A stretch of 20,995 bases of DNA from a virus, in the IMG/VR virus record IMGVR_UViG_3300036393_000022, positions 1 to 20,995 of that record. One strand, 5' to 3'. A program made the position numbers and the translations under genes. The notes under the pieces were generated by a model that was not told the origin of the DNA, did no database searches, and was given only the letters and a program-made list of their open reading frames with translations. Below, one piece after another: positions 7,594 to 20,292 of this stretch; the first letter of the stretch is position 1; each line of letters opens with the position of its first letter.

Positions 7594-7751
7594 CCCCTCT
7601 CCCACCCCTCCACCCAGCGGGGAGAGGGCGACTCGCCGCCAGGCGAGCGGGGTGAGGGGGCACCGAGTCAGAGAATAATCTCCAATCCGGAACCCCCTCA
7701 CCCGGTTCAGCGCTGCCGCGCTGACTCGACCTCTCCCCGCTGGGGAGAGGT
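7594..7751. repeat. Head-to-head pair of CCCTCTCCC/GGGGAGAGGG repeats
   Basis: Unit 1 (7594-7660) and an inverted unit 2 (about 7693-7751) fill the entire space between the tape measure stop (7754) and the gp12 start (7591). Each has a CCCTCTCCC / GGGGAGAGG stem, a CGACTCG-type arm and an end of the form GTGAGGGGG. The inner GGGAGAGGGG is the apparent ribosome site of gp12. Confidence 0.85.
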
Positions 7752-7753
7752 GC

Positions 7754-8281: not shown

Positions 8282-8549
8282 CCGGAAAAAGCTCCTGCAA
8301 CTGCGCCAGCACGTCACCGCCAACCGGCGTTTCGCTCGGCGGATTCATCGCGCCGAACACCCCCGCCAGCTCGGCCGGTGTCGCGTCCCAAAACTCAACC
8401 GGCCGCCACCCGAGCAACGCGCCCGCGAGTCCCGCCAGCCTCAAAGCGGCAACCGAAAATTCTCCGTTCGTTTCGAGCGAAGTCGAGAAACCCAGCTCAC
8501 CACGCTCGCGCTTCTCGACTTCGCTCGAAGCAAACGGATGCTGTTGCAT
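8274..8549 (-). CDS. Tail assembly chaperone-like protein (DUF2376 / GTA gp10.1 type) with repeat-derived N-terminus
   Basis: A 91-residue protein. The recognised domain is the C-terminal part, FSVAALRLAGLAGALLGWRP then EFWDATPAELAGVFGAM, as in the small GTA protein located between gp10 and the tape measure. Residues 5-29 (from PFASSEVEKRERGELGFSTS on) are encoded by a palindromic repeat (8463-8538) and have no counterpart in the family. The ATG at 8549 shares one base with the gp10 stop (TGATG), so the start is well fixed and the repeat is translated. A role in tail assembly is inferred from family and position. Confidence 0.75.
   Translation of the reverse strand: MQQHPFASSEVEKRERGELGFSTSLETNGEFSVAALRLAGLAGALLGWRPVEFWDATPAELAGVFGAMNPPSETPVGGDVLAQLQELFPDG
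8463..8538. repeat. Palindromic repeat inside the tail chaperone gene
   Basis: Inverted arms of 27 bp (8463-8489 and 8512-8538) match at 25 of 27 positions around a 22-nt loop; the core is TTCGAGCGAAGTCGAGAA. The same GAGCGAAGTCGAG core occurs in the repeats within portal and terL. The element keeps the reading frame and encodes residues 5-29 of the host gene. Confidence 0.88.
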
Positions 8550-8941
8550 CACCGCCCCTGCAGCACCTGCCGCAGCAACACCCGCAGCGCCGGCGTCGCC
8601 GCCGCCAATCCGCCCGTCGCCAGCCCGTCCGAAAACGCCTCGCGCGTCAGCCCCTCAGGCCGCTTGGCGACGCAATGCCAGAACAGCCCCGCCATCTCGC
8701 CCAGCCCCAGCCCGCCCGCCGCCGCCCGCTCCACCAGCGCGAACAATGGCCCCAGCTCAGCCTCCGCCGCCACCAGCGCCGAGAATGTCGGCCGCAGCAC
8801 CAGCTCCACCCCGCCAACCCGCACCGCTGCCTCGCCCCTAGCTGCGTTCGCAAAAATGCGCTCACCCTGAGCTTGTCGAAGGGTGTCGGCGCCGCGGGCT
8901 TCGACAAGCTCAGCCTGAGCGCGAAAAGGGGCGCCCGTCAC
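8549..8941 (-). CDS. GTA gp10 family tail protein with repeat-derived N-terminal insert
   Basis: A 130-residue protein of the GTA gp10 / phage tail assembly chaperone group. The family region runs from NAARGEAAVRVGGVELVLRP (about 32) through FSALVAAEAELGPLFALVER and GLGLGEMAGLFWHCV to the end. The start is GTG at 8941, which overlaps the tail tube stop (GTGA), the usual coupling in this block. Between residues 7 and 28 the protein is read from a palindromic repeat (RAQAELVEARG, LRQAQGER), so an original N-terminus close to V/M-TGAPF-ANAARGE appears to have been split by the insertion. An alternative internal start after the repeat is not evident because no ATG or GTG with a ribosome site is found there. 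Confidence 0.78.
   Translation of the reverse strand: MTGAPFRAQAELVEARGADTLRQAQGERIFANAARGEAAVRVGGVELVLRPTFSALVAAEAELGPLFALVERAAAGGLGLGEMAGLFWHCVAKRPEGLTREAFSDGLATGGLAAATPALRVLLRQVLQGR
8858..8922. repeat. Palindromic repeat inside the gp10 gene
   Basis: Inverted arms of 24 bp (8858-8881, 8899-8922) match at 22 of 24 positions around a 17-nt loop; the core is CTGAGCTTGTCGAAG. It spans residues 7-28 of gp10 exactly in frame (66 nt of coding length). Confidence 0.88.
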
Positions 8942-10745: not shown

Positions 10746-11258
10746 ATGCTCAGCAAGACATTGCTCGCAGCAGCCGCGCTGCTCGCCGCTTCGTCCGCGA
10801 ACGCAGCGATAATTTACGAGCACAGCGGTGTGCTCGATCAATTCAACGATGCGTTCGAGGGCTACGCGTTAAGCCCTGGAAAATATCTCGTGTCAGTGAG
10901 TTTCGATGCTGACGCAACGCTAGCAACCTCCAGCTTTGTGGAAGGCATTTTCATCTATGACATCGATTGTGGCGGATTCATCTGCGGTGGAAGCGACGGC
11001 CCATTAGGCTGGGCCTATGTTCGCAGATCTCCGCGTTCATTTGAGGCTGCTGTGGAACTTCGTCCCGCGCACCGAGATGGATCGCTGATCTTCCAAGCTG
11101 ACAGAGGCGTTTTCTCGCGCATCGCGACATTTGGACCCGCCGGCTATACATTCGCCATATCTAGCGCGCCGGAACCCGCCAGCTGGGCGCTGATGATCGC
11201 CGGCTTCGGCCTCGCCGGTGCTGCCCTCCGCCGCCGTCCAACGCCGGCAATAGCCTGA
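10746..11258 (+). CDS. PEP-CTERM-anchored secreted protein
   Basis: A 170-residue exported protein, the only plus-strand gene in the cluster. It has an N-terminal signal peptide (MLSKTLLAAAALLAASSANA, cleavage after ANA) and a C-terminal sorting signal of the PEPxxWA type: PEPASWALMIAGFGLAGAAL followed by RRR. Such proteins are processed by exosortase A and are linked to exopolysaccharide or floc formation. The middle is beta-rich, with two cysteines (DIDCGGFICGG), and matches no known domain. The ribosome site is AGGGG about 8 nt before the ATG. It converges with the head-spike fibre gene and is not a known GTA component, so it looks like an insertion. Confidence 0.85.
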   Translation: MLSKTLLAAAALLAASSANAAIIYEHSGVLDQFNDAFEGYALSPGKYLVSVSFDADATLATSSFVEGIFIYDIDCGGFICGGSDGPLGWAYVRRSPRSFEAAVELRPAHRDGSLIFQADRGVFSRIATFGPAGYTFAISSAPEPASWALMIAGFGLAGAALRRRPTPAIA

Positions 11259-11265
11259 CCCAAAA

Positions 11266-11320
11266 CCCTCTCCCCGGTGGGGAGAGGGCGACTCGTGAAG
11301 CGAGCGGGGTGAGGGGGTTC
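11266..11320. repeat. CCCTCTCCCC/GGGGAGAGGG palindromic repeat (single unit)
   Basis: A perfect 10-bp stem (11266-11275 / 11279-11288, loop GGT) is followed by the CGACTCG...GTGAGGGGG tail common to this family. It lies just after the PEP-CTERM stop and could end transcripts from either side, although no T-run follows. Confidence 0.85.
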
Positions 11321-11350
11321 TGAGTCCGCCGCCGCGCCCTATCACCCCAT

Positions 11351-14060: not shown

Positions 14061-14201
14061 CCCCTCTCCCTTTCGGGAGAGGGCGACTCGCGCCTGCGGG
14101 CGCGAGCGGGGAGAGGGTACTGGGCGCCAAAACGTCCAACCCCCACCCCCTCACCCGGACGCGCTCGCGCACGTCTCGACCTCTCCCCGCCGGGGAGAGG
14201 T
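14061..14201. repeat. Head-to-head pair of CCCTCTCCC-type repeats after the capsid gene
   Basis: Unit 1 (14061-14117) and inverted unit 2 (about 14146-14201) fill the gap between the capsid stop (14207) and the spike base ribosome site. Stems are CCCTCTCCC/GGGAGAGGG and CCTCTCCCCG/CGGGGAGAGG. Confidence 0.85.
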
Positions 14202-14206
14202 GGGCG

Positions 14207-16244: not shown

Positions 16245-16312
16245 CCCCTCTCCCCTCGCGGGAGAGGGAGGGACCCGCTCGCCATCGGCGAGCGGGAGGG
16301 TGAGGGGGGACT
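16245..16312. repeat. CCCTCTCCCC-type repeat upstream of the protease start
   Basis: The stem CCCCTCTCCC/GGGAGAGGG, a CCGCTCGCC/GGCGAGCGG second stem and the GTGAGGGGG end fill the gap between the g3.5-like stop (16322) and the protease GTG (16238). The repeat supplies the purine-rich sequence that serves as the ribosome site. Confidence 0.82.
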
Positions 16313-16630: not shown

Positions 16631-16642
16631 TGCTAACTCCTA

Positions 16643-16779
16643 CCCCTCTCCCCTGCGGGGAGAGGGCGACTCGCGCAGCGAGCGGGGTGAGGGGGTTCTG
16701 AGTCCGAACCCAAACTCAGAACCCCCTCACCCGGTCAGCGCATCCGCGCCGACTCGACCTCTCCCCGCAGGGGAGAGGT
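16643..16779. repeat. Head-to-head pair of CCCTCTCCC-type repeats overlapping the portal 3' end
   Basis: Unit 1 (16643-16697) is intergenic. The inverted unit 2 (about 16721-16779) lies inside the portal gene and encodes its last 17 residues and stop codon. Confidence 0.85.
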
Positions 16780-17890
16780 GCACGAATGCCCGCTTCTCGT
16801 CCGCCGACAGGAAATCCGCCGCCGACACCATCGCCCACAGCCGCTCGCGATCCTCGCTCAGCTCCGGCACCCGGTCGATGTCGACGCCGATCGTCACTCC
16901 CGGCCACCAGGGCGCCAGCCCCTGCGCCAGCGCCCCGTAGATCTTCGCCGCCAACGGCAGGATGGTCAGCCGCCACAGCGCCCGGTTGGCCTCACGATAG
17001 TTGGCGTAAGTCGCGTCGCCCGGCAGCCCCAGCAGCATCGGCGGCACCCCGAAGGCCAGCGCGATCTCCCGCGCCGCCGTCGCCTTCAGCCCCACGAAAT
17101 CCATGTCGGCAGGCGACAGTGATAAGGCCTGCCACTTCAGCCCGCCCTCCAGCAGCAGCGGCCGCCCGGCATTGCCCGCGCCCTGAAAACTCGCTTCCAG
17201 CTCCGCCTTCAGCCGCTCGAATTGCTCGGCCGACAACCCGCTGCCGTCACCCGGCTCATACACGAGCGCGCCGGAAGGCCGCGCCGCATTGTCCAGCAGC
17301 GCCTTGTTCCACCGCGTCGCCGCATTGTGGATCGCGACCGCCCCCGCTGCCGCGCCCAGGCACCCGAGGCCGTAATGATCGTCCGACGGATGAAAACTCC
17401 GCACATGGACGATCTGCCCGGCGTCGATCCGCTGCGAAACCTCGCCGACCCGATACAGATAACCTCCCGGCCACCCCCGCGCATCCGCTTCGATCGAAAC
17501 CCTGTCCGGCCGCAAAGCATATAGCTCCGCGACCCCTTCCCCGCTCGTCCCGAGCGAAGTCGAGGGGCGCGGAGACCCGCTCAAAACCTGCGCATACCCA
17601 TTCCCATGCAGCAACAGGTGCGAAGCTAAAGTCTCCACCAGCCCCTGCCCGCCCGAGGTCGCCGCGACCAGCCGCGCCACCTCCGGCTCGGAACAGGAAA
17701 CCGGCGCCGCCCCCACGCTCTCGGCCACCAGCCGCACCGCCCGCTGCGCGATGGGGTTCAGCGCATAAGCCTCCCGTACCTGCGCCTCATACGATCGCGG
17801 CCAGGCCCCGTCCGAAAACGCCACCCCAAACCCACGCGCCAAAGCCGGCCGCGCGGCACCGCCGCCGGCCTTCCTGCCGAACCATTTCAT
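16727..17890 (-). CDS. HK97 family portal protein, GTA gp3
   Basis: A 387-residue portal protein corresponding to RcGTA gp3, the dodecameric DNA gate of the head. Family blocks include REAYALNPIAQRAVRLVAES (about 39-58), HLLLHGNGYAQVL (about 91-103), HVRSFHPSDDHYGLGCLGAA (about 162-181) and AAREIALAFGVPPMLLGLPG (about 272-291). Two segments are foreign: residues 106-117 (SPRPSTSLGTSG) come from a 34-bp repeat (17540-17573) also present in terL, and the last 17 residues (371-387, HLSPAGRGRVGADALTG) come from another repeat that supplies the stop. Both preserve the frame. The insert lies in a likely surface loop, between HGNGYAQVL and AELYALRPDRV. Confidence 0.92.
   Translation of the reverse strand: MKWFGRKAGGGAARPALARGFGVAFSDGAWPRSYEAQVREAYALNPIAQRAVRLVAESVGAAPVSCSEPEVARLVAATSGGQGLVETLASHLLLHGNGYAQVLSGSPRPSTSLGTSGEGVAELYALRPDRVSIEADARGWPGGYLYRVGEVSQRIDAGQIVHVRSFHPSDDHYGLGCLGAAAGAVAIHNAATRWNKALLDNAARPSGALVYEPGDGSGLSAEQFERLKAELEASFQGAGNAGRPLLLEGGLKWQALSLSPADMDFVGLKATAAREIALAFGVPPMLLGLPGDATYANYREANRALWRLTILPLAAKIYGALAQGLAPWWPGVTIGVDIDRVPELSEDRERLWAMVSAADFLSADEKRAFVHLSPAGRGRVGADALTG
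17540..17573. repeat. 34-bp repeat inside the portal gene
   Basis: Identical over 34 bp to 18597-18630 in terL. The core CGAGCGAAGTCGAGG is shared with the palindrome at 8463-8538. It encodes portal residues 106-117. Confidence 0.9.
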
Positions 17891-17907
17891 CTGAAGCTCT
17901 CCAATAA

Positions 17908-17970
17908 CCCCTCTCCCCTCGCGGGAGAGGGCGACTCGCGCCTGCGGGCGCGAGCGGGGCGAGGGGGTTC
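17908..17970. repeat. CCCTCTCCCC-type repeat between terL and portal
   Basis: A CCCCTCTCCC/GGGAGAGGG-type stem, a second stem CTCGCGCC/GGCGCGAG and a GAGGGGGTT end lie just upstream of the portal ATG. Confidence 0.82.
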
Positions 17971-17982
17971 AGCGCCGAAGCA

Positions 17983-18057
17983 TCACGCTCCCGTGTCCAG
18001 CAAGGCCCAGCCCCGCCGCGTGTCCGGCAGCAGCAACAGCCACAGATCGTCCAGCAT
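17983..18057 (-). CDS. Possible 24-residue ORF between terL and portal
   Basis: An ATG frame encodes a tryptophan/leucine-rich peptide starting MLDDLWLLLLPDTRRGWALL. It is preceded by GGGG at about 4 nt and lies 27 nt after the terL stop, in the right direction and position for an operon member. No family is recognised. It could be a remnant of a longer gene cut by the adjacent repeat. Confidence 0.3.
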   Translation of the reverse strand: MLDDLWLLLLPDTRRGWALLDTGA

Positions 18058-18084
18058 CAATCCCCGTCTAACGCCAAGCACACG

Positions 18085-19422
18085 TCAAACCAACACCCGC
18101 ACCCGCGCCGGCGCCCTCGTCCCCAACATCAGTTCCGTCAGCGCCCAGACCAGCGCGTCGGCCCGGTCCGGCGATCTCCCCGGGCCTTCATAGCCGCCGC
18201 CGATCATGAACCCGCACAGCTGGTCTTCCAGCGCGGGGAAGGCGCCCATGTGCCGCACCCGGCCCTGTTCGTAGAGCCAGACCACCGGCTCCGCCCGCGC
18301 CGCCTTGCCGCGCGTCGCGTGGACGCCCCTCACCGGCAGCCCGGGATCGACGAGCCGCAGCATCTCCGTCACCAGATTGCCGCCATTGTTCACTTCCGCG
18401 ATCACCCGGTCGGCGCCGTGCCGCCGCGCCGCGCGGCTCACCGCCCCCGCCCAGCCGGTCGCGCTCAGCCCCTCGACGGTCGCATCCTCGATCACATGCC
18501 CGCATCCGTCGGCGCCCAGCCCGACCACCACGATGCCGCAAGCATCGCCCGTCTCTGAAGCCGGCGGATCGACCCCGACCACCACCCTGACAAAATCCCG
18601 CTCGTCCCGAGCGAAGTCGAGGGGCGCGGAACGAGAATCCTCGAGAAGCCCCCGCGTCCACAACGCGCCCTCCACGTCCTCGATCAGTTCCCCGTCCAGC
18701 TCCTGCCGGCCCAACCGCGTGCCGTCATACGCCCCGCGCATCGCCGCCAGGAACGCGTCCTCCAGCACCAGATTGTCTTCCATCCGCCCGCCGGTCTTGG
18801 CGGTCGCGGCATCCTTCACGATCCGCTTCAACAGCGCGATCGGGCGCGGCGTCGTCGTCACCAGCGCGCGTGGGTTGATGCCCGATCGCAGTGCCATCTG
18901 CAGATTGTCCCAAGTCTCCTGCGGCTTCGCCCATTTGGCGAGCTCGTCGCACCAGGCGAAGTGATGATTGCCGCCGCGTAAGCCATCCGGATTCTCGCCC
19001 GAATACAGCCGGACGATGCTGCCGTTCGGAAACCTGATCTGCTTCAGCGCCGGCTCCCAGTGGCACCGCCTGCGCCGCCGCCTCAGCACCGCGAGCAGCC
19101 CGCTATCTCCCTCCACCATCACCGCCCGCGCTTCGTCGATCGTGGCGCCGGCCAGCGCGATCCGGACCGGCGACGCGAGCGCCTTCGCCGCCACCCACTC
19201 CGCCCCCGCGCGCGTCTTGCCATAGCCACGCCCCGCTTGCATCAGCCAGGTCCGCCAGGTCCCCGGCGGCTCCAGCTGACCCTCATGCGCCCAGCTGGCG
19301 AAGTCCGCGATCCATGCCTTCAGGTCGGCGGGAGTCAGTGTTTTGAGATAAGCGTCGCTCTGTTCGGCCGACATGTTCGCCAGCTTTTCGGCGTGCGCAC
19401 GCACCAGGATGGATCGCCGCAT
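18085..19422 (-). CDS. terL: Terminase large subunit, GTA gp2
   Basis: A 445-residue DNA-packaging ATPase/nuclease. Walker A is GRGYGKT (64-70) and Walker B is FAWCDE (155-160). The coupling motif is LVTTTPRP (187-194). Nuclease-domain acids are D285 (VVVGVDPPAS) and the pair D419/D422 (SPDRADALVWAL). ATG at 19422 follows AGGAGG with 5 nt spacing; the extension to 19500 reads a repeat. Residues 265-276 (SAPLDFARDERD), just before the first nuclease strand, are encoded by a 34-bp repeat identical to one in portal, read in another frame. In GTAs this enzyme packages host DNA by headful cutting, without strong sequence specificity. Confidence 0.95.
   Translation of the reverse strand: MRRSILVRAHAEKLANMSAEQSDAYLKTLTPADLKAWIADFASWAHEGQLEPPGTWRTWLMQAGRGYGKTRAGAEWVAAKALASPVRIALAGATIDEARAVMVEGDSGLLAVLRRRRRRCHWEPALKQIRFPNGSIVRLYSGENPDGLRGGNHHFAWCDELAKWAKPQETWDNLQMALRSGINPRALVTTTPRPIALLKRIVKDAATAKTGGRMEDNLVLEDAFLAAMRGAYDGTRLGRQELDGELIEDVEGALWTRGLLEDSRSAPLDFARDERDFVRVVVGVDPPASETGDACGIVVVGLGADGCGHVIEDATVEGLSATGWAGAVSRAARRHGADRVIAEVNNGGNLVTEMLRLVDPGLPVRGVHATRGKAARAEPVVWLYEQGRVRHMGAFPALEDQLCGFMIGGGYEGPGRSPDRADALVWALTELMLGTRAPARVRVLV
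18597..18630. repeat. 34-bp repeat inside the terL gene
   Basis: Exact match over 34 bp to 17540-17573 in the portal gene. It encodes TerL residues 265-276, in the linker between the ATPase and nuclease domains. Confidence 0.9.
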
Positions 19423-19429
19423 ACGCTCC

Positions 19430-19566
19430 TCCTCTCCCTTGCGGGGAGAGGCGACTCGGCCCCAGCCGAGCGGGTGAGGGGGCTTCCAGGCCCGACCCAC
19501 AAACCCAGAACCCCCTCACCCGGACGCGCTTCCGCGCGTCTCGACCCCTCCCCGCCGGGGAGGGGT
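19430..19566. repeat. Head-to-head pair of CCTCTCCC-type repeats between terS and terL
   Basis: Unit 1 (about 19430-19482) and inverted unit 2 (about 19510-19566) fill the gap from the terS stop (19568) to the terL ribosome site. The AGAGGAGGAG sequence before terL is at the edge of unit 1. Confidence 0.85.
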
Positions 19567-19567
19567 G

Positions 19568-20151: not shown

Positions 20152-20184
20152 GCAATTTTTACCGGTTTGGTTATTTGACAACCG

Positions 20185-20290
20185 TCATCCCGGCGCAGGC
20201 CGGGGTCCAGCCCTAACAACACCAAGCGCGGCAGCGCTTCGTACCACCACGCTATTCAATCGGGCTGGATCCCGGCCTTCGCCGGGATGA
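20185..20290. repeat. Large inverted repeat of the GTCATCCCGGCG family
   Basis: Arms of 29 bp (20185-20213, 20262-20290) match at 27 of 29 positions around a 48-nt centre. It sits in the 306-nt clpP-terS spacer, which otherwise holds the clpP terminator, the promoter-like site and the leader hairpin. The core CCCGGCGAAGGCCGGG also occurs at 2515-2530. Confidence 0.85.
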
Positions 20291-20292
20291 TG

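Follow-up and report, generated by a model that had tools for sequence, protein, structure and literature searches.

Short dispersed palindromic repeats carried in frame by the portal and large terminase genes of an RcGTA-like cluster

In this study, we analyzed the whole of IMG/VR virus record IMGVR_UViG_3300036393_000022 (20,995 bp, hereafter the window) and found that the sequence common to its portal and large terminase (terL) genes belongs to a family of small dispersed elements, which we name REP-A, resident units of which were very probably inserted into both genes and survived there through tolerance. An earlier note, made from the sequence, had described a 34-bp identity between the two genes that is translated in two different frames, and both statements proved exact: CCCGCTCGTCCCGAGCGAAGTCGAGGGGCGCGGA is present in each gene with 34/34 bp identical and is read as different peptides (Table 1). 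The repeat supplies codons 108–117 of portal and codons 269–278 of the 448 in TerL.

Results and Discussion

The window and its relatives

Pfam matches and profile comparison identified an RcGTA-like cluster in the window, with genes for TerL, an HK97-type portal, an S78 protease, capsid, GTA-gp10, a baseplate hub and Rcc01698-like proteins. The portal profile matched the structures of the R. capsulatus GTA portal (6te8/6tba) with an E value of ~1e-121, and it is this homology, together with the GTA-type neighbors, that places the cluster among RcGTA-like gene transfer agents. The portal and terL genes are both on the minus strand; a plus-strand gene at 10746–11258, whose product has a PEP-CTERM-like C-terminus (EPASWALMIAGFGLAGAALRRR), lies amid the otherwise minus-strand cluster. 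The nearest genome found was G001 (MAG SZAS KAN-30, contig JAFEEY010000016.1), whose TerL is 80% identical over its best segment, and the genus of the window as sampled comprises G001, G151, G083, G243, G202 and G278.

Broken or truncated GTA clusters are frequent in this genus. The portal of G001 is fused to a host-specificity gene through a large deletion (L003, 9900–13400), that of G202 (L151) is cut at residue 96, and G083 (L099) and G243 (L101) have a portal without an adjoining terL.

Table 1. Repeats of the window and the genes that carry REP-A (positions in the window).
Feature	Position	Strand	Description
Window record	1-20,995		Whole IMG/VR record IMGVR_UViG_3300036393_000022, 20,995 bp
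CGTC-type REP-like units (TCATCCCGGCGAAGGCCGGGA)	2510-2539, 20184-20213, 20262-20291		Last two form an inverted pair
Second dispersed palindrome family (CCCTCTCCCC...GGGGAGAGGG)	7599-7753, 11255-11328, 14068-14202, 16633-16785, 17902-17979, 19424-19567		Between GTA genes
Intergenic inverted REP-A pair	8463..8538	.	Arms 8463-8489 and 8512-8538; fold z -6.6 against shuffles
Inverted pair of related REP-B (TTCGACAAGCTCAG)	8858..8922	.	Directly before GTA-gp10 gene
Portal gene	16727..17890	-	Homolog of R. capsulatus GTA portal Rcc01684
REP-A copy in portal	17540..17573	-	Read as SPRPSTSLGTSG; between two beta-hairpin strands (model strands 97-107, 118-126)
terL, large terminase	18085..19431	-	ATPase and RNase-H-like nuclease domain; model mean pLDDT 90.7
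REP-A copy in terL	18597..18630	-	Read as SAPLDFARDERD; linker between Pfam Terminase_6N (to residue 262) and Terminase_6C (from 285)

REP-A is a dispersed family

A search with the 23-bp core, allowing up to three mismatches, matched the window at three sites and 100 dinucleotide-shuffled versions of it at none; the third and more diverged site is part of the intergenic inverted pair. Alignment of 103 copies gave a consensus of ~29 bp, CG-NNN-C-TCGACTTCGCTCG-N'N'N'-CG(A/G)ACGG, with a core written TCGACT(T/G/A)CGCTCG. Therefore, ~5 of the 34 identical bases fall outside the repeat, and the 34 bp proposed earlier as the unit is the span of the identity, the family consensus being shorter. The arms NNN and N'N'N' covary, as they are fully paired in 21 of the 103 copies compared to a mean of 7.8 and a maximum of 12 in shuffled data.

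Within three mismatches there are 99 copies of REP-A in G001 and 58 in G151, compared to 0 in the control, and in both genomes these are mostly inverted pairs whose starts are ~47–53 bp apart. A broader pattern found 158 copies in G001, 221 in G151, 175 in G202, 174 in G207, 59 in G083, 46 in G170 and 21 in G091, so that four congeners of the window have 59–221 copies each; the genomes behind these counts are a sample that includes some draft MAGs. The window being only 20,995 bp long, the copy number in its own host is inferred from those congeners. The same pattern found 0 copies in G243, G109 and several other genomes, and G243 has an empty portal site and G109 an empty TerL site.

Inverted doublets with a strong hairpin, as in the window's intergenic pair, give REP-A the form of a REPIN. 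The earlier description of the repeat as palindromic holds for this pair, which makes a strong hairpin, but a unit on its own is weakly palindromic; a stable hairpin of one unit was not supported, since it folds no better than shuffles (z near 0). The consensus of 103 copies carries neither the unpaired GTAG nor the unpaired CGTC tag that marks one end of repeats in the REP superfamilies so named. Subtypes of REP-A are stop-free in all six frames, which is weak as a special trait since 27% of random 34-mers at 68% GC share it. No Rfam family reached its gathering score within the window, and occurrences of the repeat core in the literature were chance matches only.

REP-A is also found in other genes. 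In-frame pairs interrupt ligA, rnr, carA, trpE, putA, hrpB and dnaE2 in two relatives. Exact or near-exact matching in G001 and G151 yielded a sample of 46 distinct elements, of which at least 10 are intragenic, in portal (G001), terL (G151), ligA (both genomes, at an identical position), rnr, carA, hrpB, putA, trpE and an acyl-CoA ligase gene. The identities of ligA, rnr, carA, trpE, putA, hrpB and ligase_PEP_1 come from family models that span the repeat, and those of portal and terL from homology; in G001, five long ORFs that extend across elements had no Pfam match and were left out of the intragenic count. Beyond this sample, pairs are present in dnaE2, a phytoene synthase gene and a biotin carboxylase gene, the last being less secure because the repeat is where most model matches stop. 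Confinement of the repeat to portal and terL, which the earlier note had named as a finding that would count against it, is thus removed by its 59–221 copies in congeners and its presence in other genes, in several frames.

The near-identity of the DNA in two frames might instead mean that both genes retain the repeat as a binding site or a regulatory DNA or RNA signal of the GTA cluster. Third-position identity within the repeat is indeed high (35/40 with four comparisons pooled, P ~0.001 against 0.65). However, the repeat is missing from both genes in most relatives, is dispersed genome-wide and occurs in unrelated genes, and the identity is explained by recent insertion or by gene conversion among copies. 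We consider a conserved site of this kind highly improbable.

A single gain at the portal hairpin

The portal hairpin has 21 codons in 94 of 104 orthologue rows. These rows, like the 86 for TerL, slightly outnumber the genomes because two locus ids exist for a few of them. REP-A is present at the hairpin in the same frame in the window, G151, G001 and G083, and in the portal tree these four form one clade (support 98) adjoining G243, a fourth congener with an empty portal site and a genome without any REP-A. The portal copy is, therefore, a single gain common to the window and three congeners. In the structural model of the portal the insert lies between two strands; the model is of moderate confidence (mean pLDDT 67.4) and the placement therefore leans on the strand assignment and on the alignment to the RcGTA portal (Rcc01684, PDB 6tba/6te8), in which the matching hairpin has no insert. 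The related REP-B entered the hairpin of G068 independently (GPSTSSGP), and in G299 a different loop of the portal, near residue 149, holds an insert resembling REP-B.

Repeated entry into the TerL linker

The linker between the ATPase and nuclease domains of TerL, measured between anchors, has 24–27 codons in 64 of 86 sphingomonad rows. Inserts extend it to as many as 75 codons, and the longest of them are repeats; a few linkers of 28–32 codons show no repeat. Across the 86 rows, the linker received repeats of four kinds, always in frame, through about eight separate events, and parsimony required 8 changes on a TerL tree from which the linker had been left out. A single REP-A unit is present in the window, G151 and G170, and a REP-A pair in G091. 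REP-B is found in G205, and CCCCTCCC...GGGAGGGG palindromes in a G083 paralogue, G106, G133, G285 and the trio G007/G164/G213; the GGGAGGGG family has 5–51 palindromes per genome compared to 0–1 in the control. The linker of G245 has a CGTC-like pair, which did not hold up as a multi-copy element, since a search within three mismatches returned nothing beyond the copy itself, and its status as a repeat therefore rests on its CGTC-like form. One ancestral insertion for G170 and the window was rejected, as G170 groups with the empty G109 (support 100); its REP-A insert is therefore separate from that of the window. In the AlphaFold2 model of the window's TerL (mean pLDDT 90.7), the sole internal stretch below 50 is residues 271–275, inside the insert.

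The orthologues bear out the earlier expectation that the 12-residue segments would be absent elsewhere, as most relatives lack them and empty sites dominate, and no distant relative among those examined has that peptide without also having the DNA repeat. Both the portal and the terL inserts are thus in frame within conserved genes that have orthologous empty sites. The terL linker of G001 (L140 10513; L003 10785–10811) has a REP-A of the CTTC/GAAG subtype with no net change in length from its empty relatives. This runs against simple insertion, and possibly reflects either a deletion that followed insertion or conversion by a different subtype.

The ~5 identical bases beyond the consensus (TCCG before the repeat and G after it) raise the question of whether the two copies of the window derive from each other by ectopic gene conversion or duplication, which would give 34 rather than 29 identical bases. 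In addition, the flanks of G151 that match those of the window differ between portal and terL. Set against such local copying is the phylogenetic spread of the copies, as REP-A is in the portal of G083, G151, G001 and the window and is clearly in terL in the window and G151; moreover, five extra matches have a chance of ~1 in 1000, which is weak evidence given the many copies. We regard derivation of one copy from the other as doubtful.

Probable insertion and tolerance

The explanation we prefer is insertion of resident units followed by tolerance. REP-A is a small dispersed element in the genomes of this sphingomonad genus, existing as single units or as REPIN-like inverted pairs. A resident unit probably inserted into portal in the ancestor of the four congeners, and another into terL in an ancestor that the window and G151, at least, have in common. 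In other lineages the same sites independently acquired REP-A, REP-B, a palindrome of the GGGAGGGG type or a CGTC-like element. Both copies probably survived because the six frames are stop-free, the net change in length is a multiple of three and the sites are tolerant loops or linkers, that is, they would have been retained by tolerance and not for a benefit. The subtypes within genes equal the resident subtypes (GGGACGAACGG in G170; GAG with GAC in G091), which fits insertion of each genome's own repeats. The compared relatives are too diverged for a target-site duplication or an exact empty site to be demonstrable.

A mover for REP-A was sought among RAYTs. Pfam Y1_Tnp had no match in G151, G083 or G170, and of the two Y1_Tnp genes of G001 neither has REP-A or REP-B beside it, the one inspected (L110) being flanked by a different palindrome, AAAATAGGGACTGTCCCTATTTT. 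A RAYT as the mover of REP-A was, therefore, not supported, as none could be linked to it in the tested genomes.

Genes with inserts are under purifying selection (dN/dS 0.17–0.39). This argues against the inserts persisting only because the GTA genes have fallen out of use, a reading to which the broken clusters of G001, G202, G083 and G243 lend some weight. Also counting against decay are the long repeat inserts of the TerL linker, which are in frame, and the housekeeping genes that hold the same inserts; the sole linker frameshift inspected is a ~14 bp tandem duplication and not a repeat element. We judge decay to be an unlikely explanation. The earlier term "essential packaging genes" has to be dropped, as GTA genes are dispensable to the cell and their clusters in this genus are often truncated.

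It is conceivable that the repeats are kept because DNA packaging by the GTA is altered by a longer or charged TerL linker (between ATPase and nuclease) and by lengthening of the portal loop. Several kinds of repeat converge repeatedly on the single TerL linker, an LDFARDER-like frame is used in the TerL REP-A units of the window, G151, G170 and G001 as well as in unit two of the pair in G091, and the PSTS frame is common to the two events at the portal hairpin. However, most TerLs keep a linker of 24–27 codons, the inserts are alike in neither sequence nor length, and similar inserts are present in many unrelated housekeeping genes, which indicates general tolerance. Such an adaptive role is decidedly unlikely. 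A bolder form of the idea, which we hold to be improbable, is that the GTA TerL linker is a recurrent point of entry where selfish repeats turn into coding sequence, unrelated repeats being co-opted in parallel and kept since an altered linker changes packaging.

Use of frame differs between the two sites, with single TerL REP-A units being LDFARDER-like and portal-hairpin REPs PSTS-like. These few events suggest that local structure selects the reading frame of inserts.

Relation to known repeats

In-frame intragenic REPs and Rickettsia palindromic elements (RPEs) are already known (PMC3733652; PMC2229807). Di Nocera, De Gregorio and Rocco reported REPs within genes of alphaproteobacteria, including Sphingopyxis alaskensis and Erythrobacter litoralis, in 2013; tagged genes in other species include those for DnaE2, DNA ligase and tRNA synthetases, flexible linkers or loops were proposed as the sites, and no transposase is known for CGTC REPs either (PMC3733652). 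Those REPs and REP-A are alike in being short palindromic sequences of sphingomonads with many copies, often inverted dimers, some of them in frame in ORFs. REP-A differs from them in ending in neither GTAG nor CGTC; terminase and portal are not named in the passages of that paper compared, and in the present case several kinds of repeat, traced by gene trees and empty sites, meet in a single linker.

RPEs (Ogata et al. 2000, 2002; described in PMC2229807) are palindromic repeats found between genes and fused in frame within conserved protein genes, and the host protein Gmk stayed active despite its insert (PMC2229807). They are 105–146 bp long (PMC2229807), compared to ~29 bp for REP-A and ~76 bp for its pair, and their hosts belong to a different order of Alphaproteobacteria. 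The earlier note's proposal that the repeat entered two genes and was kept in frame, as RPEs do, is supported because REP-A is dispersed, its sites are empty in relatives and housekeeping genes also hold in-frame pairs. The likeness is one of behavior, that of an in-frame coding repeat, and is not a claim of membership by sequence. REPINs (Bertels and Rainey 2011, PMC3116915) resemble REP-A in being inverted REP doublets with a strong hairpin at tens to hundreds per genome; unlike REPINs with their RAYTs, REP-A had no linked RAYT in the tested genomes.

As far as the literature searched shows, the REP-A class without a GTAG or CGTC tag, its occurrence in the packaging genes of a GTA and the arrival of four kinds of repeat on one linker are new; the main text of a 2021 study of GTA TerL evolution has neither the word "linker" nor "insertion" (PMC7947584). 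The earlier view of in-gene elements within a GTA cluster as a distinctive case thus stands for the packaging-gene sites but not for in-frame intragenic REPs as such (PMC3733652). Our findings suggest that short selfish repeats becoming protein segments are not peculiar to reduced intracellular genomes like those of Rickettsia. In addition, recurrent uptake of unrelated elements at the TerL linker amounts to a natural insertion experiment marking the parts of the packaging motor that tolerate extra sequence, and the empty, single and paired states offer a comparative system for the origin and possible usefulness of inserts.

Other repeats of the window

Besides REP-A, the window carries REP-B, CGTC-type REP-like units and a second dispersed palindrome family (Table 1). 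The units of the latter, CCCTCTCCCC...GGGGAGAGGG, are paired in several places, and relatives of it are inserted in the TerL of other species. A further copy, at 16245–16268, falls within the protease ORF immediately ahead of the S78 domain (...PPSPARGEGT...), where its translation depends on the true start.
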